Positions 38,699 through 61,675 of a DNA stretch of 64,000 bases are shown here, one piece after another (the stretch's first letter is position 1; the number at the start of each line of letters is the position of its first letter). The stretch comes from Leuctra nigra. Taxonomy: Eukaryota > Arthropoda > Insecta > Plecoptera > Leuctridae. The position numbers and the translations under genes were made by a program. The notes below the pieces were generated by a model, which was given only the letters and a program-made list of their open reading frames with translations, made no database searches and had not been told where the DNA came from. The stretch spans positions 13,916,316-13,980,315 of the forward strand of contig OW203768.1 in assembly GCA_934045905.1 (NCBI GenBank). The letters run 5' to 3'.

Positions 38699-39330
38699 AA
38701 GGGTATGGTCCCCAATCGTACCGGAAATTTCCTAGTTTTGAGCGTTTTTTTTTTTATAAAACGGCGCCTTATTAACAATGCAAGAGCAAAAATTAAAAAT
38801 TGCTACTAATATACATTCAGACTGATCATGTGAGCATCCTAACAAAGTTACACCCACTTATGAAACAATTTTTCTCTCTCAATTTTCTAAAACGACCGAG
38901 CGTCAAGTGATACCACGTGATCATAAATGTAAAATAGGAAATTGGCCCAGCTACTGCACTCAAAGTTGCGAGAACGTTTTTCCGCATTATAAAAGTGATT
39001 CTACAACTCACGTTACCTTTTTCACCACAAACATTTGCAATTTAAATTTTTTGCCGATATAATTGCTGTTTCAATGGGATTCAAAAAAAGTCCCGTAATT
39101 ATCATTCATACAGAATTGCATGTGGTCTCATTGTCTTCGTTATGAAAAGGCGAAGAAAACAACATTTCGTATTTTTTTACTTTTGTATGTATTGTTAATT
39201 GATTACAATCGTTCTATAAAAAAAATTTACTTCCCAGATTTTTCTTCAAAATTTATATAATTTACATAAATTTATCAAATTTTATTGGGAGTATAAAGTC
39301 GAGTTGTTTCAAATCGTTTACCATACCCTT
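38699..39330. mobile_element. Possible MITE with AAGGGTATGGT ends
   Basis: AAGGGTATGGT (38699-38709) is inverted at 39320-39330 (ACCATACCCTT), with CGAT shared further in. About 630 bp. TTAA precedes the left end only, so the target duplication is unproven. Confidence 0.45.
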
Positions 39331-39336
39331 ATCAAC

Positions 39337-39374
39337 GCTCGCTCATCAACGCGTTACACTGAGCTTTTCCCTAG
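39337..39374. repeat. Third copy of the CAACGCGTTAC arm
   Basis: GCTCGCTCATCAACGCGTTA followed by CACTGAGCTTTTCCCTAG is the inverse of 33731-33768 with three mismatches. Confidence 0.65.
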
Positions 39375-39744
39375 GTATAATACATTGTGTTTTATGTTTA
39401 TATATACACAATTTTGACTTACGTTATCCTTCGGTCAGTTATATTCAATTATAGAAAATAATATGTTATAATTACATAAAATAAAATAGTGGCTAATTTA
39501 TTGTGGTTTGAAATAACGATTCCTTGACCAAAGCTTTGACGATTATTTTATTATACAAGAACAATTTTTTGTATAGGGAGGGATAACACAAATTCACTCA
39601 TAATATTATGTCATATAATAGTGTTTGGCAATGATTAGCAACCTACGGGTTAGAATTCTCAAGTTTTTCTTGACATCATCTCTTTTACATATTTTATTGC
39701 ATTTAGGTTTCAGCTCTCATATTAAAATTGTGGTGCTCGTTTTA

Positions 39745-42700
39745 CAATGCGTTCAATGAATACAGCAATTCAAGGTAGTTATTTGATGTCTTACAGTCGT
39801 ACATAATAATATTCATTTTCATGCATTTATTGTAATTTTACTACCTATAATATATCAATAATTTTAAATAATATTGTTGAAACATTTTACGGGTAAATCT
39901 GAAATTGATGTTTTCATATTTGCAAAATTTCAGTTTGATCAGAGCAACGATCTTTTCTTTCGACGCCAAAAGACAATGCATTCAATAAATACAGCAATTC
40001 AAGGTAGTTATTTGATGTCTTACAGTCGTACATAATAATATTCATTTTCATGCATTTATTGTAATTTTACTACCTATAATATATCAATAATTTTAAATAA
40101 TATTGTTGAAACATTTTACGGGTAAATCTGAAATTGATGTTTTCATATTTGCAAAATTTCAGTTTGATCAGAGCAACGATCTTTTCTTTCGACGCCAAAA
40201 GACAATGCATTCAATAAATACAGCAATTCAAGGTAGTTATTTGATGTCTTACAGTCGTACATAATAATATTCATTTTCATGCATTTATTGTAATTTTACT
40301 ACCTATAATATATCAATAATTTTAAATAATATTGTTGAAACATTTTACGGGTAAATCTGAAATTGATGTTTTCATATTTGCAAAATTTCAGTTTGATCAG
40401 AGCAACGATCTTTTCTTTCGACGCCAAAAGACAATGCATTCAATAAATACAGCAATTCAAGGTAGTTATTTGATGTCTTACAGTCGTACATAATAATATT
40501 CATTTTCATGCATTTATTGTAATATTACTACCTATAATATATCAATAATTTTAAATAATATTGTTGAAACATTTTACGGGTAAATCTGAAATTGATGTTT
40601 TCATATTTGCAAAATTTCAGTTTGATCAGAGCAACGATCTTTTCTTTCGACGCCAAAAGACAATGCATTCAATAAATACAGCGAATTCATGGTAGTTATT
40701 TGATGTCTTACAGTCGTACATAATAATATTCATTTTCATGCATTTATTGTAATTTTACTACCTATAATATATCAATAATTTTAAATAATATTGTTGAAAC
40801 ATTTTACGGGTAAATCTGAAATTGATGTTTTCATATTTGCAAAATTTCAGTTTGATCAGAGCAACGATCTTTTCTTTCGACGCCAAAAGACAATGCATTC
40901 AATAAATACAGCGAATTCATGGTAGTTATTTGATGTCTTACAGTCGTACATAATAATATTCATTTTCATGCATTTATTGTAATTTTACTACCTATAATAT
41001 ATCAATAATTTTAAATAATATTGTTGAAACATTTTACGGGTAAATCTGAAATTGATGTTTTCATATTTGCAAAATTTCAGTTTGATCAGAGCAACGATCT
41101 TTTCTTTCGACGCCAAAAGACAATGCATTCAATAAATACAGCAATTCAAGGTAGTTATTTGATGCCTTACAGTCGTACATAATAATATTCATTTTCATGC
41201 ATTTATTGTAATTTTACTACCTATAATATATCAATAATTTTAAATAATATTGTTGAAACATTTTACGGGTAAATCTGAAATTGATGTTTTCATATTTGCA
41301 AAATTTCAGTTTGATCAGAGCAACGATCTTTTCTTTCGACGCCAAAAGACAATGCATTCAATAAATACAGCGAATTCATGGTAGTTATTTGATGTCTTAC
41401 AGTCGTACATAATAATATTCATTTTCATGCATTTATTGTAATTTTACTACCTATAATATATCAATAATTTTAAATAATATTGTTGAAACATTTTACGGGT
41501 AAATCTGAAATTGATGTTTTCATATTTGCAAAATTTCAGTTTGATCAGAGCAACGATCTTTTCTTTCGACGCCAAAAGACAATGCATTCAATAAATACAG
41601 CGAATTCATGGTAGTTATTTGATGTCTTACAGTCGTACATAATAATATTCATTTTCATGCATTTATTGTAATTTTACTACCTATAATATATCAATAATTT
41701 TAAATAATATTGTTGAAACATTTTACGGGTAAATCTGAAATTGATGTTTTCATATTTGCAAAATTTCAGTTTGATCAGAGCAACGATCTTTTCTTTCGAC
41801 GCCAAAAGACAATGCATTCAATAAATACAGCAATTCAAGGTAGTTATTTGATGTCTTACAGTCGTACATAATAATATTCATTTTCATGCATTTATTGTAA
41901 TTTTACTACCTATAATATATCAATAATTTTAAATAATATTGTTGAAACATTTTACGGGTAAATCTGAAATTGATGTTTTCATATTTGCAAAATTTCAGTT
42001 TGATCAGAGCAACGATCTTTTCTTTCGACGCCAAAAGACAATGCATTCAATAAATACAGCAATTCAAGGTAGTTATTTGATGTCTTACAGTCGTACATAA
42101 TAATATTCATTTTCATGCATTTATTGTAATTTTACTACCTATAATATATCAATAATTTTAAATAATATTGTTGAAACATTTTACGGGTAAATCTGAAATT
42201 GATGTTTTCATATTTGCAAAATTTCAGTTTGATCAGAGCAACGATCTTTTCTTTCGACGCCAAAAGACAATGCATTCAATAAATACAGCAATTCAAGGTA
42301 GTTATTTGATGTCTTACAGTCGTACATAATAATATTCATTTTCATGCATTTATTGTAATATTACTACCTATAATATATCAATAATTTTAAATAATATTGT
42401 TGAAACATTTTACGGGTAAATCTGAAATTGATGTTTTCATATTTGCAAAATTTCAGTTTGATCAGAGCAACGATCTTTTCTTTCGACGCCAAAAGACAAT
42501 GCATTCAATAAATACAGCGAATTCATGGTAGTTATTTGATGTCTTACAGTCGTACATAATAATATTCATTTTCATGCATTTATTGTAATTTTACTACCTA
42601 TAATATATCAATAATTTTAAATAATATTGTTGAAACATTTTACGGGTAAATCTGAAATTGATGTTTTCATATTTGCAAAATTTCAGTTTGATCAGAGCAA

Positions 42701-44102
42701 CGATCTTTTCTTTCGACGCCAAAAGACAATGCATTCAATAAATACAGCGAATTCAAGGTAGTTATTTGATGTCTTACAGTCGTACATAATAATATTCATT
42801 TTCATGCATTTATTGTAATTTTACTACCTATAATATATCAATAATTTTAAATAATATTGTTGAAACATTTTACGGGTAAATCTGAAATTGATGTTTTCAT
42901 ATTTGCAAAATTTCAGTTTGATCAGAGCAACGATCTTTTCTTTCGACGCCAAAAGACAATGCATTCAATAAATACAGCGAATTCATGGTAGTTATTTGAT
43001 GTCTTACAGTCGTACATAATAATATTCATTTTCATGCATTTATTGTAATTTTACTACCTATAATATATCAATAATTTTAAATAATATTGTTGAAACATTT
43101 TACGGGTAAATCTGAAATTGATGTTTTCATATTTGCAAAATTTCAGTTTGATCAGAGCAACGATCTTTTCTTTCGACGCCAAAAGACAATGCATTCAATA
43201 AATACAGCGAATTCAAGGTAGTTATTTGATGTCTTACAGTCGTACATAATAATATTCATTTTCATGCATTTATTGTAATTTTACTACCTATAATATATCA
43301 ATAATTTTAAATAATATTGTTGAAACATTTTACGGGTAAATCTGAAATTGATGTTTTCATATTTGCAAAATTTCAGTTTGATCAGAGCAACGATCTTTTC
43401 TTTCGACGCCAAAAGACAATGCATTCAATAAATACAGCGAATTCATGGTAGTTATTTGATGTCTTAGAGTCGTACATAATAATATTCATTTTCATGCATT
43501 TATTGTAATTTTACTACCTATAATATATCAATTATTTTAAATAATATTGTTGAAACATTTTACGGGTAAATCTGAAATTGATGTTTTCATATTTGCAAAA
43601 TTTCAGTTTGATCAGAGCAACGATCTTTTCTTTCGACGCCAAAAGACAATGCATTCAATAAATACAGCGAATTCATGGTAGTTATTTGATGTCTTACAGT
43701 CGTACATAATAATATTCATTTTCATGCATTTATTGTAATTTTACTACCTATAATATATCAATAATTTTAAATAATATTGTTGAAACATTTTACGGATAAA
43801 TCTGAAATTGATGTTTTCATATTTGCAAAATTTCAGTTTGATCAGAGCAACGATCTTTTCTTTCGACGCCAAAAGACAATGCATTCAATAAATACAGCGA
43901 ATTCATGGTAGTTATTTGATGTCTTAGAGTCGTACATAATAATATTCATTTTCATGCTTTTATTGTAATTTTACTACCTTATATCAATAATTTTAAATAC
44001 TATTGTTGAAACATTTTACGGGTAAATCTGAAATTGATGTTTTCATATTTGCAAAATTTCAGTTTGATCAGAGCAACGATCTTTTCTTTCGACGCCAAAA
44101 GA
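39745..44102. repeat. Satellite array, 229/230-bp unit, 19 copies
   Basis: Head-to-tail units start CAATGCATTCAATAAATACA at 39974, 40203, 40432, 40661, 40891 and so on to 43877, plus a more diverged first copy at 39745. Two main forms alternate: 229 bp with CAGCAATTCAAGG and 230 bp with CAGCGAATTCATGG, plus a hybrid CAGCGAATTCAAGG at 42727 and 43187. Identity between units is near total, while the last unit is degraded, as expected at an array edge. AT-rich, non-coding. Shared private variants hint at higher-order duplication. Confidence 0.95.
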
Positions 44103-44199
44103 CGGGTACTCATTTCGGTACTCACTCGAGTACTCATTTCGTTTAAAACCGCTAGGAACTCTATTCCCTGGATATTCCCTATTCCCTATCTATTCCCTG

Positions 44200-44457
44200 G
44201 ATATTTTTAACAATTCTATTGAAAACATTAGGTCCACTTTTAATAAATTTGTATTTGATTTAGCATCAGTTTAGATTAGGTTCATAGATTAGCATTAGAT
44301 TAGTATAATTTAGTTTGTGGTGATTATTTAAATTTTTCCTGTTTTAATTTTTAACTTTGTATCAATTGCTTTTCTCTGTTAGTTTTTCATAATTTGTTGT
44401 TATTTTATATGTTATGTCCACTTGTGGAGTTTTACTCTGTTGGATATATTGTACAAA

Positions 44458-44503
<46 letters not shown>
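44200..44503 (+). mobile_element. LINE 3' tail ending in (AAAT)n
   Basis: A T-rich 3' UTR-like stretch ends GTTGGATATATTGTACAAAT and then about 12 AAAT units (44455-44503), the tail type of CR1/Jockey-like LINEs. It separates the satellite from its diverged relative at 44510. Confidence 0.6.
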
Positions 44504-44504
<1 letters not shown>

Positions 44505-44509
44505 GAATG

Positions 44510-44720
44510 GAATATAATCTATGAAATATTTTTGAAATATTTGACGAGTAAATCTGAAATTGATGTTTACATTTTTTTAAATTTCAGCTTGATTGATTAT
44601 AGCACCGATCTTTCTACGACGCCAATAAACGGGAAAATACAGATATTAGTTATAAAGTTTTGAAAGGATGCTCATTCCGTTCGTTCACTTAAAACCGCTA
44701 CTCTCCCTGAATAGGTATAG
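44510..44720. repeat. Diverged satellite-related segment
   Basis: GAGTAAATCTGAAATTGATG, TTTCAGCTTGATTGA and ACGACGCCAATAAACGG match the second half of the 229-bp unit with many changes. A block TCATTCCGTTCGTTCAC with TTAAAACCGCTA also echoes the sequence following the main array (44110-44150). It is an old outlying unit. Confidence 0.65.
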
Positions 44721-45241
44721 GTGGGAATATAATCTACTTAAAAAGCCTTATATTTTTAGTGCAATTGTACATTCTAACAGCTAATGAATTGTAAAAATAC
44801 AGCTTTAAAAGAAATAAAGACCACTGTGATCAGTTATGCCGTACTCCAAAGTAAGCTTTAAAATCTTAAAAATCTGTTAAACATCATAAAACTTCAAAAA
44901 ATTAAGTTAATTTATGTTGATTCTAATCCCCTTCTTCAAAGGTAAGGAGTAGCAATTACCATGCCAATCAAAACGGATAATGAATACTCTTTAATTATTA
45001 CTTATCATTTGAAAATGAGTAGGCTAATAAAAGTGATTAACTCTACGAAATGTAACCACACAACTTACTCTTAGCAACCAGTTCTCTAACCAATCAAAAA
45101 TCTTCAAACCAGAGAAGAAGAAAAAAAATGTTAATAAAAAACCATCATTATATAAGCATTAAGTTAGCTAAGTAATTTGGCGCCAAGATACAGCATTGAG
45201 CGGGTTCAAATATTTCGAATCTGTTCCGGCATTCCATTCGG
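44721..45241. other. No feature recognised
   Basis: AT-rich, no ORF or repeat supported. Confidence 0.5.
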
Positions 45242-45266
45242 TGACGTCACAAGGTATCTATAAATA
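45242..45266 (+). promoter_or_regulatory. CRE plus TATA, candidate promoter
   Basis: TGACGTCA (45242-45249) lies just upstream of TATAAATA (45259-45266), within ATCTATAAATAAATGGCGCC. GGCGCC motifs flank it at about 45180 and 45271. The next 200 bp are more GC-rich than the surroundings. No coding exon was recognised downstream, so a non-coding transcript, an upstream exon or chance remain possible. Confidence 0.35.
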
Positions 45267-45529
45267 AATGGCGCCAATGGTTTGGAGTTGTTTTTTATTC
45301 TTTTTAATTTTTTTCGTTCTCGTTTACTGGGCCAGGCTCCCTGACATTGGGTGTGTATTCCATCAGGTCCGGTCCTGAGGTCTGATTCGCTAACTATTCG
45401 TCCTGAGTTGTCGACGAGATTGCTGTGTTGTTCTTATGGAGATGAGAAGATGTCGACGAGTGGATTTGTTAGAGAATAGGGGTCAATGTCGATAGCGAAC
45501 GCTCACGCTTTATTCTAATTTAATTTCAT

Positions 45530-48500
45530 GAGGAGCGAAAATAGATAACATAGTTCTGTCTTTTGTTGATTTTTGTTTTTTGTGTTTTGTTACTTGACAG
45601 CTTTACCGTTTTGTGTCTGTAGTTGACAAAATATATTAGTCTAGAAAAACATATGTTTTTTTTTAGCAAATCTTAAAAAAAGGTAAAATAAATAGTTATA
45701 TGCTGAAAAATTTAGGTCAGTATTCATACATTTGTTTGGATTTAATTTTCTAACATTTTATAGAATTTAATTGGCATAATCAAATAAGATATTTCAATTT
45801 AAATCCTGAAACTTAATTTGTATATTGCTTTTTCCATTTTGTAGTTTTGTACGATCTTTATTGCCTTTATTTCTTAAAAATCAGTAAACCCACTTGAATG
45901 CCATTATTTTTCCTAAAATAAACGTATTGTTTACTAAAATCTGAATTACACGTTTCAATGTTTTGAATCATGAGAGTCAAGACATCTTTTACAAATTAAA
46001 AAACTCAACAAGACAAGACTGAAAATTACTTCAAGAATATTTGTTAAATCATGCTTTGTGTGTAATTTTAAAGTTCTGTCAAATTCATGATCTTGCACCT
46101 TGATACGAAAATATAATCTTTGTTATTCAGAATGAAACAAATATATTATTTTGACAAAAATATTTTGAAATAGTACCAGAAAAGTTAATTATAGATTTTC
46201 CCTTCTTCTTTCAAATCGAATCCTTGTTTTTTTTGTTCTGCGACCAATCAGTGAGAATGTAAAAGTAGCAACCGTTTATTTAATCTATTAGAGTAAATGA
46301 TAATAAGAATAAGTAACAGTTGCAGTTTTAATAGCATGTTGGTGTTTTTACATCAGGGCTGAAACGAGAGAGGATTTGGCCCAATTATTTGGGAATGTTC
46401 TGCGGACCATGTGCGTGATTTTCACAGATTATAACAACGACCCTTTTTTGGCGGTTGTTGCATGGTTGGAATTGTTGCATTTTAAATCCGGCTATAAATA
46501 CATTGAAGTGCCTGTTTAGAAAATATTTTAAAATAGGAATCAAAGATTCTTCGTATTTTTTTTCAATCGATCGAAAGCGGAATAAAACACCTTAAAAAGT
46601 CCTTCTATAATTATATATGGCAATTTTGTATAAAGTAGAAAAATCAAGAAAACCTGAAATGTGCAAATTATGAATATTAAATTAATTAATTAATTAATGT
46701 ATAAATTTAAAAACAGTGCATTCATTATACTTTTTAACTACTCTAAAAGTAACACTATTTTGGTCGTTATTTATTGTAACGTTCAAATATTTGTAAATTG
46801 TTCAAGATGAAGAAGGTACCGAAATGATACATTGCATTTTGTATCAGTAATTTTAATTGTGTAATCGAAATCCGAATTAGATTTTTTGTCCAGCTTGTTC
46901 TTATTTTGTTTAGTATGAAAAAACCTAAATTCCACTAATTATAAAAACTCTGATCTGGATAAATTTAATTGACAACATTTCTGGACTTTCTTGATGACAG
47001 CACATAGATACTAAAAATAATAATTTCCGTACAAGATCATGAGTATTGCAAAACTGTAAAACGAAATATTTCAACTAAAGAACAATATTCGTAAAAATGA
47101 TACAGATGCCGGCTCAAGGTACGTGATGTTTATAATTTATCACTCACATAAGGAAAAGTGGTGTAAAATCGAGAATTCGCAGAAAAATGACAGAAAGAAT
47201 CTCATAGCATTCAGGAATGTACCGAGGAAGAATAAATGTGTAATTTGTTGACCTACAAGTCTTCTTAAAAATACCAATTTTGATACTAAGTATCAGAAAC
47301 TACATTATAAATATACGATAAAATATATAATATAAAAATATATTATAGTTATATCAATAGTATAATATAATAATTATGTCGAATATAATTTAACATACAT
47401 TTTCTTTAAACTTGTTGGGTGCAACTAAACAAATTTGGGTCAATCAGATATTTGGGACAGAACTATAAAAATTTCATGAATAATAATTGTAACTGAGTTT
47501 TGAACGACTAAAAAGTCAAAAACCTTATACTCGTCCAAAAGAATTGGAGTAGGTATTTACTATTTTGTGTGAATTCCATTCCTAAAAGTTTTCAAAACGT
47601 ATACATTCACACATTATAACATATTTTAAATTAAATTTGAAGTAAGCAGAACTTACCCTCAATGCCGGAGAAGATATTAGAAGCACAAACCTACCTCTTA
47701 ATAACTAAATATTAATGACACACTGTTAGAAACATTAATGGACATGAAATTGTTGTCAACAATCAGGTTTGTGTAGCAAATTAAATAAATTTCATTCTTG
47801 AATGTAGGTACCTATTAATTGTTTAGGTACCGATATTTAGCACACAATTTTTATAAAATAAAGGTAGCGATCGCTATTTATAGATTTTTATAGAACTCAG
47901 ACGTAATAAATTTTCATAATTTAAAACACTTGACACCAACCAATTAAAATATTTAAATTAAAGCGATTAAAATTATAACGGCTATTAAAACGTATTTTTT
48001 TCAGAACACAAAATAAAAATCAAGCTAACCTCAAAACACTTCAATCAAACGCTCTTCAATTGAAACCTAATTAACACTCACAAACCGGCGCCTAAAAAAA
48101 AACAATAGCCGATCTAAAAATACGCCACTCGGTCTATTCCCGACACCGAAAGAGAATTCCCAGCTATTAATGTCTAGCGTGGCTGCCACTGATAGTGTGA
48201 GGGTATATTCGGACTACTGGCGCTTCTAATAGTTTGGCTCCTAGAGGGGGGTTAGAGAGAAGGTACATGAGGGCGTTACGGGACATTGAAATCAGTACTC
48301 AGGGACGTGCGCTGACTAGGTGACCTTGAATATTTGGCTGCTACCAGACCATTCGCGGAGGCTTTTTTTTAGATTGATATGATGTTTGGTTTTGTTGAAA
48401 ATGTAGGGAGGTTTAGGTGGAGTTGGAATTTTATTGTTGTTATTATTTTATTATGTGTAATCGATTTCTAAAATTTTAAAAAATCTGTAGTTTGGGAAAA

Positions 48501-50450
48501 ATTGCAATTTAACTAATCAAGTATACTCTTCTATTTACTAATTTTTTTTTCAGTAAAAATTTGTATAATTTGGCTTGCAATCCCATAATTACAATTTTAG
48601 TGACATATTTAAAATTTCTTTATAGTAGACCGACTATCGCTTTTTTTCATATTGAACAAATTACAAATATTTGAAAATATAAAGAAATGTTAGTTGAAGA
48701 ATGCAAATTCCTTTTCATTTATTAAAATTTGGGGGAATTTTTTTCAAACTAATTAATTTGTATAAAAAAAGTAAAGTACTTTAAAAAAAAGTAGTGTCAA
48801 CGAAAATAGTGAGGAAGTGAATATTTGTATTATTTGTTATTTTATGCAATACATTTCGATCAAATATAAAATGACATTTTCTTCTGAGTTGGATACTAAT
48901 TGGACCATTGCAATGTGTAAGAATGCGATAATTTTAATAATTAAAACAGAGTCAAACTCTATACTAAAAAGCTAAATTAATACAAAATAATACCTGACCA
49001 TTTACTTAGAGTAGTTTTGGTCAAAATATAATAAACTAATTAAAAATTCATTCAGTACGTTTTAGACTTTTATAATTAATAAAACTAGATCAAAGAATAT
49101 AAATTTGTTAAACATACAATAGCAAAAAATCTTTGTAGTAAGTATATCTATGCCACAAGATAATCGGTATAGGCTCCACAAAATAGGTTCCATTTCTTCA
49201 GAAATTTTCAGAGTATAGATAAAAGCTCAACCATCTAACTTTTCTGTACTTCCAAATGGTTTTTGTTATAAAGTTTTTACTCAGTGGAGCCTTTTCATGT
49301 ATATTTAATTCCCCTCTCTCGTAGCACCGACGATAATTTGGTAATTTTCCAAATGTGATTTCATGTCAATACCATGCATAATGTAACCAAGTCCGGTATC
49401 CATTTAATTTCACTTTCAAATCTTCAAAACAACAAATTTCATAAAACTATTTTCGTACTTGTTTTTCAGTTGTTTTCGATGAAATGATTGTTATAAAAGT
49501 GATTAGTAAATGTGTTATTTCAAGTGACGAGGTCATGTAGAATCATGGCTTGAAGAGGTGAGGAGAATGTTTGGGGGTTTCCCTATGGTATGCCAGGAAT
49601 GCCGTGTGCACTCATTTGCATATAGCTGGTTGAAGAGGTGTTACAGAGATAGCTATGCAGTGGGTGGAAGTTATTTCAAGTATTCACGGTTCGCCTAGAG
49701 TATCGGTTTTATTGTTTTCTCTGCTTGCATACATGGAATGGAATGTAAATAATAAATGTTATGTTCATTGAGAAGATGACTCTTATGCAGAATTATTTAA
49801 AGGTTATACAACAGTGGTGGTAATAAAATTGTATTAAAGTTATTCTCTCTCGTGAATATCCATGAAAGGGCTCCATAAGTTAAAATAGTTAAAAGGAGTA
49901 AAATAAGAAGGTAATAAAACCAATTCGTAAATAAATAACAAAAACATGTTTTGATATTTAATTTACATATGAAAATGGGATTGATCAAAATCTATTATTT
50001 CGCAAAAGTGTTAAAAGCTGGAAGTCGAAACAAAAGTCAAAATGTTGACGAAAATCCAAAATAACAGCCACAAATGCCCCAAATTTCCATCAACTTTTCA
50101 TTCCCTACTTTTATATCTTTCCGAAAAGTTAAAATTCAAAAATAACACTAAGTAATTGTATTGGAACATACATTAATTTTTACTTTTAGCTTTTTAGAGC
50201 ACGAGGAAGGGATTAGAATCAGGGTATCTGTAGCTCGATGGCCTGAAGTCCATTTTCTCGATTTTGGTTTGCACACTTTGGAAGGATGCAATGAAGCTCT
50301 ATCAATTGCCATTTGACTATGTTGTCACCAAATATAGATATATTGAAGTATTCTCTTCCACAATGAATCATGCCACCATTACAAATATGATTGTATGAAG
50401 ACAAAATTACAGGTTGAGCTCACCTCAAAAATCATTGAAGGGGACTTGGC
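45530..50450. other. Five-kilobase gene-free AT-rich stretch
   Basis: No exon, domain or transposon end could be recognised on either strand. Short features only: (ATTA)n near 46681-46698 and a pure AT run at 47320-47390. 48100-48350 is slightly GC-richer without an ORF. This is probably intron or intergenic spacer. Confidence 0.5.
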
Positions 50451-50451
50451 C

Positions 50452-50870
50452 ATCTACTTCTTCTTCTACTTCTTCTTCTACTTCTTCTTCTACTTCTTCT
50501 TCTACTTCTACTTCTACTTCTACTTCTTCTTCTACTTCTACTTCTACTTCTTCTTCTACTTCTTCTTCTACTTCTTCTTCTACTTCTTCTACTTCTTCTT
50601 CTACTTCTTCTACTTCTTCTACTTCTTCTACTTCTTCTACTTCTTCTACTTCTTCTACTTCTTCTACTTCTTCTACTTCTTCTACTTCTTCTACTTCTTC
50701 TACTTCTTCTACTTCTTCTACTTCTTCTACTTCTTCTACTTCTTCTACTTCTTCTACTTCTTCTACTTCTTCTACTTCTTCTACTTCTTCTACTTCTTCT
50801 ACTTCTTCTACTTCTTCTACTTCTTCTACTTCTTCTACTTCTTCTACTTCTTCTTCTTCTTCTACTTCAA
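50452..50870. repeat. (TTCTTCTAC)n / (TTC)n microsatellite
   Basis: About 46 copies of a nine-base unit TTCTTCTAC after a more irregular TTC/TAC section. Open frames through it (Ser-Thr-Ser or Tyr-Phe-Phe repeats) follow from the period being a multiple of three. Confidence 0.97.
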
Positions 50871-51254
50871 GTCTACTTATTTGAACAATTATAATTCTGA
50901 TATAGAAGTATAGGATACAATGTTGTGTTCTGACATCTATTACATCAGTAAAATTATGGATATATTTTCAGTGCTGAATTTCAAATTAAATACCCGAACA
51001 TTTATTATTTTAAATGGTTTCAGGCTTCTGTGAAAGAAATTTTATAACATAATCTAGATGTATCAATAATATATTTTCTTAAAAATCTTTTTCTACATTT
51101 AAAAACTGGCTTTTCAAACAATTAATGTTTTCTCTCATTTACGAAGTCTTTGCCAGTAAAATATTCGCGTCTATAGCGAACTTGAAAAGTTGAGCTTTTT
51201 TACCAGTCAGTAAACTTTTGACGTTATACCAAACGGCTAAAACGTATGAACAAC

Positions 51255-52445
51255 CCCAATAACTGGAGCCTCTTTCTGTATCTCATGAACCTCATCCTCC
51301 TCAGATCTCTGTCGCTATCTCACAGGCAAATGGAGCCTCTTTCTGTACCTCATGAACCTCATCGTCATCAGATATCTCTCTTCATCTCGCACGACTAATG
51401 GAGCCTCTTTATGTACCTCTTGAACCTCATCCTCCTCAGATCTCTCATCATCTCGCTCGGCAAATGGAGCTTCTTTCTGTACCTCATGAACCTCATCCTC
51501 TCATATCTCTCTTCATCTCTCACGACTAATGGAGCCTCTTTCTGTACCTCCTGCACCTCATCGTCCTCAGATCACTCACGGCAAATGGAGCCTCTTTCTG
51601 TACCCCTTGAAACTCATCCTCCACAGATCTAAAAGTAAAGTAAAGTAAAAGTAAAGTAAAAACGTCTTTATTTGATACGGCGAGATTAAGCACTGACGGC
51701 TTTTCTTCCACCTAACCGTTTCTCTTCATTTCACAGGCAAATGGATCCTCTTTCTGTATCTCTTGAACCTCATCCTCTCAGATCTCTCTTCATCTCGCTC
51801 GGCAAATGGAGCCTCTTTCTGTACCTCATGAACCTCATCCTCTCATATCTCTCTTCATCTCTCACGACTAATGGAGCCTCTTTCTGTACCTCATGAACCT
51901 CATCCTCTCATATCTCTCTTCATCTCTCACGACTAATGGAGCCTCTTTCTGTACCTCCTGAACCTCATCCACCTCAGATCTCTCTTCATCTCACAGGCTA
52001 ATGGAGCCTCTTTCTGTACCTCCTGATCCTCATCTTCCTCAGATCACTCACTGCAAATGGAGCCTCTTTCTGTACCTCCTGATCCTCATCTTCCTCAGAT
52101 CACTCACTGCAAATGGAGCCTCTTTCTGTACCTCCTGATCCTCATCTTCCTCAGATCACTCACTGCAAATGGAGTCTCTTTCTGTACCTCCTGATCCTCA
52201 TCTTCCTCAGATCACTCACTGCAAATGGAGCCTCTTTCTGTACCTCCTGAACCTCATCCTCCTCAGATCTCTTACGACTAATGGATCCTCTTACAGTACC
52301 TCCTGATCCTCATCTTCCTCAGATCACTCACTGCAAATGGAGCCTCTTTCTGTATCTCCTGAACCTCATCCTCCTCAGATCTCTTACGACTAATGGAGCC
52401 TCTTACTGTACCTCCTGAACCTCATCCTCCTCAGATCTCTCTTCA
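51255..52445. repeat. Minisatellite, 55-68 bp units, about 18 copies
   Basis: The unit begins AATGGAGCCTCTTTCTGTAC and includes CTGAACCTCATCCTCCTCAG and a variable TCTCTTCATCTC end. Spacing is irregular (56-68 bp early, 55-58 bp in the block 51990-52260), so no frame is conserved through the array. Each unit read on the minus strand contains CAGGAGGTACAG, a weak splice-donor-like site. A retroposed tail interrupts it at 51630-51715. Confidence 0.9.
51630..51715 (-). mobile_element. Retroposed LINE/SINE 3' tail inside the minisatellite
   Basis: On the minus strand GTGCTTAATCTCGCCGTATC followed by AAATAAAGACGTTTTT ends in a (TTTACTT)n-type A/T tail. AATAAA is present. Only about 60 bp of body survives. 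Confidence 0.6.
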
Positions 52446-52634
52446 TCTCGCTCGACGGATGCTGCGCGAATGGAGCCAGCATGACAGTGACCTTGCGCAT
52501 CGACCTCGAGACTTGACCTACTGTCTCATTCCTGATCCACATCGATCTAGAGGCGCCGGCGTCTCGTAGCGCCACCCTCAACCCACAAGCAAACTCAAAC
52601 CCTGACAACCCCAATGACATCTCTCGCTATTCAA
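52442..52634 (-). CDS. Possible exon of unknown gene, GC-rich, low confidence
   Basis: An open minus-strand frame (REMSLGLSGFEFACGLRVAL, then MWIRNETVGQVSRSMRKV) runs from about 52627 into the minisatellite and stops at 52390. Its base composition differs from the surroundings, and a weak acceptor (TTGAATAG) precedes it. I recognise no family. It could be an exon, the non-repetitive ancestor of the minisatellite, or chance. Confidence 0.2.
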
Positions 52635-53369
52635 CGTTTTTGATACTTTTGTAAACACCGAAATAATTTTGGAAAATATGGAATAAATAAAATAATAATT
52701 AAATAATTCCTTTGTAACGTTAAATTGGCAAGTATATATAAACAATCATCTTTTTAGAATCATCCTTTACAATTTAAACAAAATTGTAAATATTTTAGGT
52801 ACGATAATTAAAATATAATTTTAACTCATATTTGCTTTATTACAATTAGAAAATAGCAAGAATTTGAGGAATTATCTAGGTAAGCAAATGAGATGATTTT
52901 AGTCACACCATTGCTGTCGAATTATTATCAACACCATCTACTGTGTACCCCACGAGAGAAGGGGAATAGAACCTACATAAATGGGATCCATTTCACAAAA
53001 TGTATGACAAAATATGGATCACATTTATTTATATTTTATTCCCTTTCTTCGTCTCCTAAAACGCATATATAACGCAGACATGTTGTCATTTTGTGTAGAT
53101 TCTCTCGCGGATGCAACGATAATCAACCGCAAGTTTAGCAGCAAAGCGTGTATTTTTGTCGCATTCATTCTCTCGCTTATCAAACGTATAACTTCAACTT
53201 AATATATATTTGTGATATCTGCACCACACAACATTCCTGAAATAACTGACGCATCTGAGTGAAGGACGTTCGAGGCAAGGTCGTCCGACTATGCGGCACC
53301 ACCTCGTCAATATGCCTACATAAAGCGGAATGATGGATCTTGCTGTAGGTAATCATACATCGTTTGTTT

Positions 53370-53470
53370 GGGTACTAATGAGTCGAAGCGCACTGCGCAA
53401 GCGCGCGCCCGCCATTTCGTGGCGGTTTTCTTAGGGGCGGACATCTTGGCGAGGGAGGAGGTAAGGCGTC
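53370..53470. promoter_or_regulatory. CpG-rich promoter-like segment
   Basis: GCACTGCGCAAGCGCGCGCC (NRF-1-like), CCGCCATTTCGTGGCGG and ACATCTTGGCGAGG (YY1-like, inverted) cluster within 80 bp of otherwise AT-rich DNA, with a CACGTG E-box at about 53475. A minus-strand ATG in good context (AAGATGTCCGCC) opens a 42-codon frame MSAPKKTATKWRARACAVRF with no family match. Either direction is possible. Confidence 0.4.
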
Positions 53471-53699
53471 GGAACACGTGACTGTTTGGTTTATTTGTGT
53501 TATTAAATATTTGAGTCACATATTTTATATGATTTTTTGGTTGTGTTGCATTTTATGATTGTTGAGTACAGATTACACTTTCAATAACTAATTAAAAAAT
53601 TGCTGTGGATAAATAATTAAGTTTATAGTGAAACGACACGACGTGTTTTAACGAAATTTCAAATTTGAAACAGATAAGTTTAATTTTAATATTCATTAA

Positions 53700-53835
53700 G
53701 GTCCAGTTTTTCAATACTCTGCTAAATTTTAAACAGTTGATTAGGACTAAATTGTCATGGCAACAACCAATAGCATTCCTTGGATGGCCGTTTAAATTTA
53801 ATATTGGTTTTAGCAGAGCTTTGATAAACCTGCCC
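53700..53835. mobile_element. PIF/Harbinger-like MITE, 136 bp, TAA target
   Basis: TAA at 53697-53699 and 53836-53838 flanks TIRs GGTCCAGTTTTTCAATACTC and, inverted, GGGCAGGTTTATCAAAGCTC, both followed by TGCTAAA. Its length is almost identical to the element at 31885-32021, and its left half is related to 23487-23558. Confidence 0.8.
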
Positions 53836-53945
53836 TAAATCTATAAAATATGCAATTAATAATCTTTAAAATAAGAATAAAAATGTAATGTTTGCAAAAA
53901 GTTGTAAGTAGTCCAGTCTGTATTAGGTTGGCCAATCCTAGACAT

Positions 53946-54176
53946 TTATTTTGTCAGAGAAGAATGCGTAACATATTTCAGTAATTTATTCATTTTGTTC
54001 TGGAATTTCATTCTACTGCAAATGCTCTTGGAACTTTTTCGTCTTCTCCATTCTGGACTTGCGTATTTTGAAATTAACTTTTCTTCATATCTGAAACGAA
54101 TAACAATTCTAGCAGCCCAGTGTAACACCGCCTTGAGGAAATCTTCCATCTCACCCGTAACCTTGCTAATAGTGAT
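53946..54176 (-). CDS. Possible terminal exon of an unknown gene, low confidence
   Basis: A minus-strand frame ITISKVTGEMEDFLKAVLHW, then RRRKSSKSICSRMKFQNKM, ends in a stop that overlaps AATAAA (CAAAATAAATG). It begins after an AG (ATGTAAG) with a T-rich tract. A candidate preceding exon (YSVQQLALEHCLKPVM, about 54211-54287) has a good acceptor and donor, but its phase does not match. No family recognised. Confidence 0.25.
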   Translation of the reverse strand: MTISKVTGEMEDFLKAVLHWAARIVIRFRYEEKLISKYASPEWRRRKSSKSICSRMKFQNKMNKLLKYVTHSSLTK

Positions 54177-54659
54177 CTTACATAATAATAATACAATAAT
54201 AATAACACAATTATTACCAAATTTCCGCGAACTAACTGATGAAATCATCACCGGTTTCAAGCAATGTTCTAACGCCAATTGTTGCACGGAATACCTGAGA
54301 GTGACGACTAAAAATAAACTGATAATAGATTAATGAACGCATTATTACTAAGGCTATTTTACAGCATTCCTATAAATAGATTTAGGTAGAAGATCGAGAG
54401 AGCGATGTTTCTTAGCTCATCGTAATTGTGCAAAAAAAAATTATTCTGTTTTGATTATTTGAATCACGAAGAGCTATCTTTTTGTAGGTACCTTTTTTTG
54501 AATATCTTACATGCGTGTTTTTACCTTGTATAAGCTACGAACCAGAATTACATGAATACCTCAATTTTTTATACAAAAATGCAGAAACAGGACAACTGAA
54601 ACAATTATTGAGTCAAAATAATACTATATTGGAGAACGTTCGTTAAAATTGTAATATTT

Positions 54660-54899
54660 AATTTAGCAGTTATAAAAAAAGCTCTATATTGATATTGTGT
54701 TGTAATATTCTGATTTGTATGTTTAAATTATATTTTAGTGAGTATGGTTATGTATATTTATGTATTTATTTTGTATTTGAAGAGTTCGTACAATTTTTCT
54801 GTGTTATTATTATAATTTATGTATCTTCCCCGCAGTCAAGCCATTTTTTGGCTTTGTGGGGCTACAGTTTATTTTTTATTGTATGATTGTGTTGTGTGA

Positions 54900-54930
<31 letters not shown>
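54660..54930 (+). mobile_element. 3' end of the same LINE family, plus strand
   Basis: TATTTGAAGAGTTCGT, CCCCGCAGTCAAGCCA and TGGCTTTGTGGGGCT match the 3' UTR of the element at 29697-30475, followed by A26 (54905-54930). 5'-truncated. Confidence 0.75.
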
Positions 54931-55867
54931 TTATTGGCTATTGAAAATGAAATAAAGACATTTTAGCAAACGGTGAGTTAATATTGCAATAATTTTATTT
55001 TAAATATGGCGAACCGACACTTCTTGGTTTGTCATAAAATTTGTAGGTATTCGTAAAAAGTGTTTTTTGCGGACAAAACTGTCATGCTATTTTGAGCATT
55101 ATTTACAACACTAAAATACAATTATTACATTTTGTCACAATTCCATCGATATTCATTATGACAATCAAATACAAGAAAATATATATATCAAGCCAAATTG
55201 ATAATGGCTTTTATAATTTTGTATGTAAAAATAAACTCTGTGTTGTCTTTAGGTATAATTTTATAAAGCGGATCAAGGAAGATGTTATTCTAAATAATTA
55301 TGTAGAAAAACAGTTTATTCTCTTGAAGGTCAATACATTAGTAAAGGGTTCACGGATGTATATTAGTAGATTATTTCATGCCTCAAAAACATTACTATGA
55401 CTCACTAGGCATTATCACACTGTCCCGGATTTTACTTTAAAAATCACAATTTTAATGACATTAACAAAGAAAAATGTTACCTTTTGTGTCACTAACTATT
55501 TAATTTCCGGGGTTCTCGGAATCTCCCACAATTATATTGAACATACTGAACAGTTTCCATTACAAATACAATTTATCAATGTAGCTGGGATAACGTGATC
55601 TTCAATTATTCACGCCAAACACGTGACCCATTAGCGGCAGCCAACAAAACCTTTGTTGCTCTTTCAATATGACTGTATACTTGTTTTATGTTAATAACCA
55701 AACACAATCACAATTCATGAAATCTGTGACGAAAGGAAAGAAAAGAACAGGATCAATGTATTTTATTATTATGAACTGGTGTAAGTAAATGTATTAGAAT
55801 TAAACAATCTTGATATGGGATTGACTAGATCCTGTGCGATTATCTTCCGCGTCATGAATGTAAAGGA
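54931..55867. other. No gene recognised
   Basis: AT-rich; the 102-codon plus frame at 55092-55400 is Ile/Lys/Tyr-rich and has no motif. Confidence 0.45.
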
Positions 55868-55920
55868 CCGGAAGTGCGATGACCGGAAGTAGATCTAATT
55901 CTGTGACTGATGATCACGTG
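55868..55920. promoter_or_regulatory. Twin ETS sites and an E-box
   Basis: CCGGAAGT at 55868-55875 and again at 55883-55890, then CACGTG at 55915-55920. Paired CCGGAAGT boxes plus an E-box are typical of TATA-less promoters, but no adjacent gene start was found. AGATCT/GTAGATC repeats nearby (55890-55965) could also mean a small repeat element. Confidence 0.3.
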
Positions 55921-56261
55921 GTTGCCGAGATGTTTTCGGTAGATCTTCGCAAGTCGGTAGATCTCTGCCTTTTCGGACTGTAAGAGGGTATAGTTACAAT
56001 AGTATAGTAATAGTATAGGCTGAATAGGGAATCCGAAACTATTTCACTTTGGGGTGATCTTAATATTTTTTGGGAAATTATAATTTTAGTAAAACCCTAT
56101 TTTAATTTTGGTTTAATTTTTGTCACATTTATTTTGATTGGTGATCAACATTGTTAACGATATACGCATAATATTGACTGCGTTTTCCAATCTCGTACAT
56201 TCTTGCTAAAAAATGTTTATAACAATTCTTCACCTCCTGCTCAAAAGAAAATGTCACTCAC

Positions 56262-59200
56262 TACGATCAAGATGACTGGTCCGCCATATTGCAACAGAAG
56301 AGGGCGCAACCTGGTGAGCATCTCGTACATGAAGTCCACCTCCATGAGGTCCGCGTCGTGCCAGGACGTGAGCCAGGGGGGTGGGAGAGTGCAGGGACGT
56401 ATCAGCACTCGCAACCTGATAGAAGTCATATTGTAACAGCAGAGGGTGAGCATCTCGTACATCGCCTCCATGTGGTCCGCGTCGTGCCAGGACGTGAGCC
56501 AGGGAGGTGGGAGAGTGCAGGGACGTATCAGCACTCGCAACCTGATAGAAGTCATATTGTAACAGCAGAGGGTGAGCATCTCGTACATCGCCTCCATGTG
56601 GTCCGCGTCGTGCCAGGACGTGAGCCAGGGAGGTGGGAGAGTGCAGGGACGTATCGGCACTCGCAACCTGATAGAAGTCATATTGTAACAGCAGAGGGTG
56701 AGCATCTCGTACATCGCCTCCATGAGGTCCGCGTCGTGCCAGGACGTGAGCCAGGGAGGTGGGAGAGTGCAGGGACGTATCAGCACTCGCAACCTGATAG
56801 AAGTCATATTGTAACAGCAGAGGGTGAGCATCTCGTACATCGCCTCCATGTGGTCCACGTCGTGCCAGGACGTGAGCCAGGGAGGTGGGAGAGTGCAGGG
56901 ACGTATCAGCACTCGCAACCTGATAGAAGTCATATTGTAACAGCAGAGGGTGAGCATCTCGTACATCGCCTCCATGTGGTCCGCGTCGTGCCAGGACGTG
57001 AGCCAGGGAGGTGGGAGAGTGCAGGGACGTATCAGCACTCGCAACCTGATAGAAGTCATATTGTAACAGCAGAGGGTGAGCATCTCGTACATCGCCTCCA
57101 TGTGGTCCACGTCGTGCCAGGACGTGAGCCAGGGAGGTGGGAGAGTGCAGGGACGTATCAGCACTCGCAACCTGATAGAAGTCATATTGTAACAGCAGAG
57201 GGTGAGCATCTCGTACATCGCCTCCATGTGGTCCACGTCGTGCCAGGACGTGAGCCAGGGAGGTGGGAGAGTGCAGGGACGTATCAGCACTCGCAACCTG
57301 ATAGAAGTCATATTGTAACAGCAGAGGGTGAGCATCTCGTACATCGCCTCCATGTGGTCCGCGTCGTGCCAGGACGTGAGCCAGGGAGGTGGGAGAGTGC
57401 AGGGACGTATCGGCACTCGCAACCTGATAGAAGTCATATTGTAACAGCAGAGGGTGAGCATCTCGTACATCGCCTCCATGTGGTCCACGTCGTGCCAGGA
57501 CGTGAGCCAGGGAGGTGGGAGAGTGCAGGGACGTATCAGCACTCGCAACCTGATAGAAGTCATATTGTAACAGCAGAGGGTGAGCATCTCGTACATCGCC
57601 TCCATGTGGTCCACGTCGTGCCAGGACGTGAGCCAGGGAGGTGGGAGAGTGCAGGGACGTATCAGCACTCGCAACCTGATAGAAGTCATATTGTAACAGC
57701 AGAGGGTGAGCATCTCGTACATCGCCTCCATGTGGTCCGCGTCGTGCCAGGACGTGAGCCAGGGAGGTGGGAGAGTGCAGGGACGTATCAGCACTCGCAA
57801 CCTGATAGAAGTCATATTGTAACAGCAGAGGGTGAGCATCTCGTACATCGCCTCCATGTGGTCCACGTCGTGCCAGGACGTGAGCCAGGGAGGTGGGAGA
57901 GTGCAGGGACGTATCAGCACTCGCAACCTGATAGAAGTCATATTGTAACAGCAGAGGGTGAGCATCTCGTACATCGCCTCCATGTGGTCCACGTCGTGCC
58001 AGGACGTGAGCCAGGGAGGTGGGAGAGTGCAGGGACGTATCAGCACTCGCAACCTGATAGAAGTCATATTGTAACAGCAGAGGGTGAGCATCTCGTACAT
58101 CGCCTCCATGTGGTCCACGTCGTGCCAGGACGTGAGCCAGGGAGGTGGGAGAGTGCAGGGACGTATCAGCACTCGCAACCTGATAGAAGTCATATTGTAA
58201 CAGCAGAGGGTGAGCATCTCGTACATCGCCTCCATGTGGTCCGCGTCGTGCCAGGACGTGAGCCAGGGAGGTGGGAGAGTGCAGGGACGTATCAGCACTC
58301 GCAACCTGATAGAAGTCATATTGTAACAGCAGAGGGTGAGCATCTCGTACATCGCCTCCATGTGGTCCACGTCGTGCCAGGACGTGAGCCAGGGAGGTGG
58401 GAGAGTGCAGGGACGTATCAGCACTCGCAACCTGATAGAAGTCATATTGTAACAGCAGAGGGTGAGCATCTCGTACATCGCCTCCATGAGGTCCACGTCG
58501 TGCCAGGACGTGAGCCAGGGAGGTGGGAGAGTGCAGGGACGTATCAGCACTCGCAACCTGATAGAAGTCATATTGTAACAGCAGAGGGTGAGCATCTCGT
58601 ACATCGCCTCCATGTGGTCCACGTCGTGCCAGGACGTGAGCCAGGGAGGTGGGAGAGTGCAGGGACGTATCAGCACTCGCAACCTGAAAGAAGTCATATT
58701 GTAACAGCAGAGGGTGAGCATCTCGTACATCGCCTCCATGAGGTCCACGTCGTGCCAGGACGTGAGCCAGGGAGGTGGGAGAGTGCAGGGACGTATCAGC
58801 ACTCGCAACCTTCATGAGATAAGCCTATTTGTAGGTATAACCATCCCATCATTCGTCTTCAGGGTCTTGCAAATGATTGTCTAGTACTCTGCCTTTTTGT
58901 CAACTCCTGCTGTCCTTTCCAAGTGAAGAGCTTTGTTATCTTAGGGATTGTAGCAGAGTTTTGCGTTTCCATCTTCTTACCCAATATTTCTGAATCTTCT
59001 ATGTAGTACCACGAAAATCTTGGGAATATTATCTAAGTCAATGGGAGCCATTGCATAGGTTAAGCGTTCTTACAGTTTAAATTCCAACAGATTTTAAAAT
59101 TCCGCTGGGAAATCAGTTAAATCTGGAAGGAAGGTATTTTGCTTATAAAATTGCCTAAAATTGTCAATTAGCGTCTTCTTCCCTAAATTCAGTTAACGTT

Positions 59201-60921
59201 CCTAAGTTAAAATCGTTGCATACCTCACCATGATCATGATCTCACCATGACCTCATCTAAGAACACTATAATCTGGTCTAGAAGTTGTCCAACTTTACCC
59301 ACCCCTCCTCCTGCGCCAATCTCGCCGCCAGGACAAAGTCTAGATTGTCCGTGAAGTTGTACACCCCTGGCGTCGGTTCATGTTGACTCCACGAGATGGT
59401 CACGTCGATCGTGTCGACGCCTCTGCTCCTGTGCGCGCGCAGACGAGCCCGCCATTCAGATGGAGGTAGTCGCGGGTAGTCGAAGACGGCGGCGACCACG
59501 GACTCCGGGAACTCGTTGTAGAGATCTGTGTAGAATGCGACGCCGTCGTCCATCGTTGCATTGAAGGTTTTGGTGTAGAACTTGAGTGTCTGGATGGAGG
59601 GTTCATGTACAGAGTACATCGACACATTGCTAGTTGGGTGGTGGTCGTCGAGTACCATGGTGGAGGTTGTGGGTTCGGAGTCAGGAGTCAAATTGCTGGT
59701 TGTGGGGTGGTCGTTGAGAATCTCGGTGGAGGTTGTGGGCTGGTCGTTGAGAACCATGATGGAGGTTATGGTTTCGGAGTCCATCGACATATTGCTGGTT
59801 GTGGGGTGGTCGTTGAGCACCATGATGGAGGTTATGGTTTCGGAGTCCATCGACATATTGCTGGTTGTGGGGTGGTCGTTGAGAATCTCGGTGGAGGTTG
59901 TGAGGTGGTCGTTGAGAACCATGACAGAGGTTGAGGGGTGGACGTTGAGAGCCACGACGGAGGTTGTTGGTCCGAAGTCAATCGACATATTGCAGGTTGT
60001 GGGGTGGTCGTTGAGAATCTCGGTGGAGGTTGAGGGGTGGTCGTTGAGTACCATGGTGGAGGTTGTGGGTTCGGAGTCCATCGTCATATTGCTGTTTGGC
60101 CGGTGGAGAGTTGGGGGGTGCAGGATCAGAGTCGCGTTGGAGGTGTAGGTGTAACCGTTCGAACTCCAGTCCATTGCTAAGATCAAGGACGAGAGTTTAC
60201 CGCTCATGGGTGGACAGGGAATCATGTAGTCGGCGTTCAGCGTCGTGTTGGAGGTGTAGGGGCAACCGTTTGACGTCCAGTCCATGGCGTACGATGGACA
60301 GGGAATCATGTAGTCGGCGTTCAGCGTCGTGTTGGAGGTGTAGGGGCAACCGTTTGACGTCCAGTCCATGGCGTACGATGGACAGGGAATCATGTAGTCG
60401 GCGTTCAGCGTCGTGTTGGAGGTGTAGGGGCAACCGTTTGACGTCCAGTCCATGGCGTACGATGGACAGGGAATCATGTAGTCGGCGTTCAGCGTCGTGT
60501 TGGAGGTGTAGGGGCAACCGTTTGACGTCCATTCCATGGCGTACGATGGACAGGGAATCATGTAGTCGGCGTTCAGCGTCGTGTTGGAGGTGTAGGGGCA
60601 ACCGTTTGACCTCCAGTCCATGGCGTACGATGGACAGGGAACCATGTAGTCGGCGTTCAGCGTCGTGTTGGAGGTGTAGGGGCAACCGTTTGACCTCCAG
60701 TCCATGGCGTACGATGGACAGGGAACCATGTAGTCGGCGTTCAGCGTCGTGTTGGAGGTGTAGGGGCAACCTTTTGACCTCCAGTCCGTGACACATCTCG
60801 GCGACATGGCCGAGGTTGTGACCACGGGGTCAGTCTTCAACGTCATGGTGCAGGTGAGAATTGAAGCGTAGAAGACACTTGCAGCTGCAACCATTGCGAC
60901 ACTCTTCAATAATAGCGTCAT
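56262..60921 (-). CDS. Divergent glycoside hydrolase family 35 (beta-galactosidase-like) protein with amplified exon; 3' end not found
   Basis: Exon 1 (59303-60921) starts with a signal peptide MTLLLKSVAMVAAASVFYAS. It then encodes seven 28-residue repeats (PCPSYAMDWRSNGCPYTSNT type), a Thr/Ser/Asn-rich repeat region with many N-glycosylation sequons, and finally GH35 sequence: DYPRLPPSEWRARLRAHRSR, SWSQHEPTPGVYNF, LDFVLAARLAQEEG. The donor GGAGGG|GTGGGT (phase 2) joins to G|TTGCGAGTG to give EEGLRVLIRP, matching family EEGLYVILRP. Exon 2 ends RPLLLQYGGPVILIV|GTGAGT, corresponding to the strand just before the catalytic NEYG. If the whole array is one exon (56262-58809), frame is kept throughout, giving about 1389 codons so far. 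Oddities: the loop normally reading RPGPYICAEW and following Gly-Gly is shortened to RPCTLPPPWL, and no NEYG exon is visible. Secreted; activity doubtful. Confidence 0.8.
56288..58809 (-). repeat. 126-bp tandem array, 20 units, derived from the GH35 exon
   Basis: Nineteen exact 126-bp periods (unit boundaries at 56411, 56537 and so on to 58805) plus the terminal, ancestral-looking unit. On the minus strand each unit encodes LRVLIRPCTLPPPWLTSWHD, then VDHMEAMYEMLTLCCYNMTS and IR (42 codons), with only a few substitutions (V/A, H/L, L/P). The ancestral unit (56262-56415) instead continues EMLTRLRPLLLQYGG. Repeats lack about ten bases at that point and read on into GACTTCTATCAG|G, a splice-acceptor-like junction present at every boundary. 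Because 126 is divisible by three, other frames and the opposite strand are also open; those are by-products. Confidence 0.95.
59640..60810 (-). repeat. Coding repeats in GH35 exon 1
   Basis: From 60223 to 60810, seven 84-bp units (28 codons, two Cys each). From 59640 to 60080, a second set of Thr/Ser/Asp/His-rich units (VLNDHPTTSNMSMDSETITS and TSTEILNDHPTT types, about 22 codons or multiples). Mucin-like low complexity suggests a glycosylated extracellular stalk. The units are nearly identical, so they are evolving by unequal exchange. Confidence 0.85.
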
Positions 60922-61675
60922 GTTCTGTGATGACGACTAAAATACGTATAAAATATGAGATTGTGTTATAAAATGGCTCGAGAATACGTGCTTGCGAGCT
61001 GTTTTCTTCGGTTGGCAGATGTTAAGCGAGTCAGAGCCAGTTTGATGATGACAATCAGAGATGATGAATTGGCGCGAGTGTTTGAATACACCCACTGCAA
61101 GAACGTTCTATTCTGCATTTACATACTCTCACTTCATGTTGATTTGTAGTTCTTTCCTTCCTTCTTTCACTCTTTCTTTCTTTCCTTTTTTCTATCTTTC
61201 ATTATAATTGTCATTCCTATACCTTGGTCGCTGTTTTTGGAAATGTGTGGATTTGCTTTTGAAATTAATTTCTTCAAAATAAAATGCAATAAATAATATT
61301 ACATATTTTTCAGATGAAACTCACAAGTTGGTTAAATTTAAAAAAAATTAAGTATCTGAGTATAGGTAGGTATACTTTTATTATTATAAAATACAATATT
61401 GTATGATCCTTTAGGTCACTTGCAATTTTAAATTTGAATTGTAACAACAATAATATTCCAAAACAACCGCCATCCAATTTATTTAAAATGTCACAAACAT
61501 GTTCCTGAATGATGTAGGTAGGTACTTTAAAAAATGCAGAAATAAGAAAAATAATATGGCTAATTTTGACAAAAAGTTACAAACATCGTTTCATTTTTAT
61601 CGTTATAACAAATATTGGGGAAATTTTCTTTACACCATTTCGTCGTAATCTCTAAAAATGTTTTGCAAAAAACAG
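60922..61675. other. Upstream region of the GH35-like gene, nothing certain
   Basis: It should contain the promoter. A T/C-rich run near 61150-61200 (TTTCTTTC) is the only visible structure. The small plus frame at 60955-61149 has no motif. Confidence 0.4.

Follow-up and report, generated by a model that had tools for sequence, protein, structure and literature searches.

A 126-bp minisatellite with same-phase candidate splice acceptors at an exon boundary of a GH35-like gene of Leuctra nigra

Results and discussion

Organization of the GH35-like gene

The window, that is, the whole stretch of 64,000 nucleotides of Leuctra nigra DNA that was analysed, carries on its minus strand a GH35-like gene (Table 1). 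Exon 1 lies within an intact open frame of 552 codons from stop to stop (59281-60936), and it is this exon that carries the GH35 match. Its residues 475-545 match positions 6-76 of the 319-position Pfam profile PF01301 with an E-value of 2.7e-13 and 50.6 bits, above the curated cut-off of 27. The Pfam ASCIZ zinc-finger family is also listed for the same frame (3.4e-12), with no single stretch passing; since the 28-residue repeats contain its best stretch, this match is probably spurious. Two of the three arrays of the gene sit within exon 1.

Table 1. Features of the GH35-like gene, in the order of transcription (window positions; the slash marks an exon or unit boundary)
Feature	Positions	Strand	Remarks
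Exon 1	59303-60921	-	Start codon, N-terminus called hydrophobic by eye, in-frame arrays, GH35 N-terminus ending ...LAQEEG
84-bp (28-residue) in-frame array in exon 1	60211-60787	-	6.9 copies, 98% matches; units translated
33-bp-based (11-residue) degenerate array in exon 1	59612-60098	-	Overlapping Tandem Repeats Finder rows with periods 33, 66, 99, 132, 165
Candidate intron 1	58684-59302	-	Donor GGG/GTGGGT at 59302 to the top-scoring acceptor CTTCTTTCAG/G before 58683
CTTATCTCATGAAG, front of unit 1	58810-58823	-	No CAG acceptor, unlike all other unit boundaries
19 units of 126 bp	56416-58809	-	Each a modified 5' part of exon 2, with CAG at its end
Full 154-bp exon 2 (LRVLIRPC...LLLQYGGPVILIV)	56262-56415	-	GH35-like, without the CAEW..GG stretch; only complete copy
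Proposed donor GTA/GTGAGT after exon 2	56256-56261	-	Score 2.01; the GT at 56233 scores 2.65

Homologues of exon 1 were sought among 7986 scored candidates and none was found at E ≤ 0.01. The joined exons, used as query, recovered two proteins among 14 candidates, both of them GH35 fragments and, in our judgement, bacterial-looking. Against solved structures, the joined exons matched 21 distinct chains (E ≤ 0.001), some but not all of which aligned through the end of exon 2; the join between the two exons, AQEEG/LRVLIRP, lines up with the solved GH35 proteins. Splice sites were scored with a generic matrix, which rates the plausibility of a site and not its use. The exon-1 donor (last exonic base 59303, first intronic base 59302) scores 2.46. 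Higher-scoring GTs occur downstream of it at 59245 (4.67), 59228 (5.06) and 59223 (3.15), all three past the in-frame stop at 59278-59280. Joining the donor to AG/G restores EEG/LRVLIRP as in GH35 proteins, which bears out the original prediction of a donor at 59303.

The 126-bp array and its candidate acceptors

Directly upstream of exon 2, the minus strand from 58809 to 56416 splits into 19 units, each exactly 126 bp long, which are followed by the 154-bp copy (56415-56262). Tandem Repeats Finder (TRF) places the array at 56339-58811, with a period of 126, 19.6 copies, 99% matches and 0% indels, and both approaches confirm the predicted arrangement of 19 units in front of one complete exon. 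With near-identical copies of a unit above ~10 bp lying head to tail, the array is a minisatellite. Ten of its 19 units are identical, and the variants, taken over all 19, are confined to four sites. When the exon was used as a DNA query against the whole genome (536 Mb, 144 contigs), at least 20 matches were obtained, all at this locus; very common words were skipped in this search and its counts are lower bounds.

All 19 internal junctions carry a CAG/G acceptor in one shared phase, as had been predicted. The junction reads GACTTCTATCAG/G in 18 of them and GACTTCTTTCAG/G in the remaining one, before 58683. Unit 1 (58809), on the other hand, is preceded by CATGAAG and not by CAG. The array thus shares with VNTRs of the ABCA7 type a splice-site consensus in each unit, in the same phase, except at the front of unit 1, and the expectation of an acceptor at every junction fails at this one boundary. 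Since it lacks CAG, the good acceptors give exon lengths of 154+126n with n=0-18; the in-frame series of lengths stands as proposed, but its range of 0-19 does not. When the 118 AGs from 59280 to 56262 are ranked by the generic matrix, the CAG junctions take the first 19 places and the unit 1 boundary comes 31st. The acceptor before 58683 scores highest (3.39), and the other CAG junctions score 1.60. Judged by sequence, the array junctions are plausible candidate acceptors.

The unit is open in two of the three sense frames and in one of the three antisense frames, and one frame stays open across the whole array of 19 units and continues into exon 2. Of 20,000 single-base shuffles of the unit, 25% kept a given frame open and 60% kept at least one sense frame open, and a period divisible by 3 arises by chance a further one time in three. 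The array itself is beyond chance and its openness can be explained by chance; this openness is unremarkable and constitutes weak evidence. An antisense frame of 864 codons was rejected as a gene, openness being its sole support.

The array could be wholly coding, which we regard as rather unlikely: splicing would then go mainly to the first strong acceptor (58683), and the product would be a secreted, repeat-rich protein containing 18 of the 42-residue modules, for which the GH35 remnant would have been raw material only. Such an arrangement would agree with the top score of this acceptor (3.39 versus 1.60, generic matrix), with the two in-frame arrays already carried by exon 1 and with the single frame that crosses all 19 units into exon 2. 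It accords poorly with the second sense frame and the antisense frame, which are equally open, with the lack of exon 1 homologues in the search described above, and with the unit variants, which are all missense, albeit at four sites only.

Comparison of the unit with the full exon

Alignment of the unit with the full exon shows gaps of -6 and -10 bp, several substitutions and a different sequence over the last ~11 nt. Four differences fall within unit positions 1-78 (37, 63, 69 and 78); site 78 touches the first gap, and sites 63 and 69 also vary among units. The 6- and 10-bp deletions, together with the replaced tail, put the last quarter of the unit outside the GH35 frame. Since the -10 gap shifts the frame, the last ~10 residues of the unit (TLCCYNMTSIR) are non-GH35 sequence. 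The units had been described as shortened copies of the exon; this is accurate for the modified 5' part but not beyond it, given the two deletions, the replaced tail and the lost GH35 frame.

The four unit variants, L/P, V/A, H/L and I/F (codons read on 18 of the 19 units), are all missense, which argues weakly against coding constraint, four sites being too few to judge selection. At site 69, the exon-like base is present in units 1, 3 and 17 only, of 19, a pattern fitting an expansion from the interior, as if the interior copies were newer. At site 63, it is found in seven of the 19 units (5, 9, 12, 15, 17, 18 and 19); this distribution has no edge pattern and fits interior expansion less well. 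The start of the array coincides exactly with the AG/G exon boundary. Exact RNA-based copying of the exon was considered and rejected, because the end of the unit does not match the end of the exon.

Search for the GH35 catalytic core

In a phmmer alignment of exon 2 with 3thc, which we take to be the human enzyme, a gap covers the greater part of the CAEW..GG stretch as well as some of the loop after it, and the alignment resumes at DLMEVDFMYEMLTRLRPLLLQYGGPVI. This stretch, located after the RPGPY strand, is present in all five bacterial GH35 proteins aligned and in 3thc, so that exon 2 falls short of GH35 in this conserved element; exon 2 itself was misplaced in the alignment of the five bacterial proteins. 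Exon 2 alone, queried minus its first codon and plus three codons of the following intron, gave no GH35 match in Pfam at E ≤ 1, and neither did the array translated together with exon 2.

Downstream of exon 2, no GH35 exon was found in the window or in 60 kb of flanks. Pfam searches with stop-masked frames detected no GH35 exon in 48000-56262 (three minus-strand frames, E ≤ 1) and gave only a sub-cut-off COMM match in 36000-49000 (two of the three minus frames, E ≤ 0.1). With a profile of five bacterial GH35 proteins, exon 1 alone was significant among 2884 open stretches of the window, and the same profile again singled out exon 1 in the 124-kb context. The array frame reached a non-significant E-value of 7.8 in the five-protein profile search, at profile positions 154-180, which correspond to the end of exon 2. 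As regards the GH35 catalytic glutamates, presumably borne by an ENEYG-type motif and a later nucleophile, no significant profile match lies past exon 1 in the window and 60 kb of flanks. A six-frame motif scan of the window matched the GGPVI of exon 2 itself. Nineteen ENEY matches, all within stop-ridden frames of a 230-bp array, are not credible, and one YWGG and one TNFG match were likewise judged not credible as a GH35 core.

Since no catalytic core is found nearby, the GH35-like gene looks, as an enzyme, either truncated or decayed, unless a missing exon is more distant or too diverged. The original prediction spoke of an active-site-proximal glycosidase exon; that the repeated module is such a part of a working GH35 enzyme is not supported, given the missing CAEW..GG stretch and the core not found nearby, and the out-of-GH35-frame tails and all-missense unit variants also oppose the reading as a GH35 module. 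The truncated aspect of the gene would suit a fragment of a pseudogene that bears an array and is not expressed, or a copy number set by the assembly, for which we see only a small chance. A pseudogene sits uneasily with the intact frame of exon 1 and with its GH35 N-terminus well above the cut-off. For an assembly origin, the scattered unit variants argue against simple copying, and 2.4 kb should be short for long-read assembly (the contig spans 37 Mb, with some N gaps).

Minisatellites elsewhere in the genome

Twenty regions of 10 kb along the same contig (200 kb in total, two regions holding 200 N each) were analysed with TRF for arrays with a unit of at least 30 bp and a length of at least 250 bp. 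Eleven such arrays were found, in eight of the 20 regions, and three of them have at least 15 copies and at least 96% matches (unit in bp x copies: 93 x 15.8, 110 x 18.8 and 124 x 16.8), which brings these three near the 126-bp array in length, copy number and uniformity. Scaled crudely from this one contig, the genome would contain some tens of thousands of such arrays, so that some of them should fall on exon edges. On the other hand, the periods of the three arrays of the GH35-like gene (126, 84 and 33) are all divisible by 3, versus five of the 11 in the sample (counted from the shortest TRF period of each array), which hints at a coding constraint.

Several other arrays were observed in the surroundings. 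A satellite-like array of 230 bp x 19.0 (99%) occupies 39744-44103, where G+C is low (0.263 for 40001-44000). Diverged 56/66-bp arrays at 51264-52454, which read on the minus strand as EEDEVQEVQKEAPFAVRD-like repeats, are possibly another repeat-bearing exon; two pieces of them gave no Pfam match at E ≤ 0.01. A 9-bp array of CTTCTTCTA x 45 lies at 50460-50868, with several frames open on both strands. In the flank, about 26.5 kb past the window end, a 55-bp array has 13.1 copies at 99% (L016:6487-7208).

Known systems with repeated splice sites

In EBV, the W repeats each carry their own splice acceptors, and their units are of kilobase scale and contain introns. EBV internal repeat 1, with the W exons of EBNA-LP, gives a protein ladder by W-module number, and Cp transcripts mostly include all repeat exons, skipping being rare (PMC12451641). 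The likeness to our locus lies in repeat-derived exons with acceptors of their own and in a protein ladder such as was proposed for the array. The difference is that EBV is viral and, since the repeat exons are mostly all retained in its Cp transcripts, that its ladder does not arise mainly from a choice among acceptors.

In human ABCA7, the VNTR of intron 18, which has a 25-bp unit, starts with the donor of exon 18; one unit is retained through a cryptic donor, unchanged with VNTR size, and exon 19 skipping rises with VNTR length (PMC5954066). Here too, a minisatellite adjoins an exon and its unit begins with a splice site. However, ABCA7 concerns donors and not acceptors, its unit is out of frame, and its effects were demonstrated in RNA and in the population, whereas the present case is drawn from genomic sequence. 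For the REST/semenogelin genes of mammals, the central exon was expanded by short duplications and slippage, with a shift in acceptor use (PMC7556508). Exon expansion is thus combined with moved splice acceptors, but the source as available describes no acceptor per repeat, and these are expressed seminal proteins. MUC1 has a coding VNTR, and some of its spliceoforms are without the repeat domain (PMC2538764); an acceptor in each unit, as in our array, was not reported in the portions available. LPA kringle IV-2 is a coding VNTR as well, which differs from the 126-bp array by its unit size of 5.6 kb.

The ABCA7, EBV and REST cases show that repetition of splice sites is, in principle, already known. 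In the available portions of the literature searched, on splice-site-reiterating arrays, repeat-bearing GH35 genes and arthropod minisatellites, we found no minisatellite in an animal exon that reiterates an acceptor, in frame or otherwise, and no glycosidase example. The claim that no such case had been described therefore holds for glycosidases in these sources, but not for reiterated splice sites as such, known from the ABCA7 donors and the EBV W exons.

According to the original prediction, a choice among acceptors could add extra modules (0-18 with the good acceptors); in an evolved ladder, the array would have been kept for that purpose. We consider such an evolved ladder improbable. It could account for the presence of 19 acceptors in one phase, of which 18 have the same sequence, and protein ladders set by repeat number do exist, as EBNA-LP illustrates (PMC12451641). 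Yet the module tails are not GH35, no catalytic core that the modules could modify was found nearby, and comparable arrays are common in this genome. Furthermore, EBV is a weak precedent as far as its available description goes, skipping of repeat exons being rare in Cp transcripts (PMC12451641).

Origin of the array

Probably, the array is an ordinary minisatellite that by accident extends across the splice acceptor of a decayed GH35-like gene. It would have started at the 5' end of exon 2 in the truncated gene, through a tandem duplication that may have captured the first part of the exon and brought a CAG resembling an acceptor to the junction. The 126-bp unit could then have been spread and homogenised by unequal crossing-over or replication slippage, presumably like the many other arrays of this genome, and the acceptors would have been copied passively. 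If the locus is transcribed, the 19 near-identical acceptors would probably be used mainly at one end of the array, and any isoform ladder would be a by-product.

In favour of this minisatellite origin weigh the frequency of similar arrays, the missense variants, the pattern at site 69, the lost GH35 frame, the lack of a nearby core and the unremarkable openness. Less easily reconciled with it, though not enough to overturn our preference, are the periods divisible by 3, the intact 552-codon frame, the 19 CAG junctions that outscore the other AGs, the departure of site 63 from an edge pattern, and the start of the array at AG/G, for which the minisatellite origin offers no cause. The array is real and unusual, and most likely it simply resulted from the growth of repeats and does not serve to produce many forms of a protein.

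There is nonetheless a slim chance that this animal protein-coding gene uses its minisatellite, with 3' splice sites all in one phase, to generate a graded family of proteins differing by the number of 42-residue modules. Array length would then set the range, and heritable copy number would become isoform range. With 19 near-identical acceptors in one candidate intron, the locus would offer a natural test of spliceosome choice (first transcribed, last or random). It also illustrates how, in a minisatellite-rich genome, a repeat array can develop from the edge of an exon.

Other genes in the window

Exon-like pieces of three other protein genes were observed in the window; two of them, translin and CBM14, together with a mir-282 hairpin, point to a protostome of arthropod-like affinity. 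One of D-2-hydroxyacid dehydrogenase lies at 7235-7696 on the plus strand and one of a CBM14 chitin-binding protein at 16533-16772 on the minus strand. A translin piece is located at 13844-14227, also on the minus strand; its five best solved-structure matches are 3riu ('Translin') and four entries named 'GM27569p', presumably a Drosophila protein. Finally, the precursor of the microRNA mir-282 is present at 34453-34542 on the minus strand, as a full-length Rfam match of 66.7 bits (gathering score 55).
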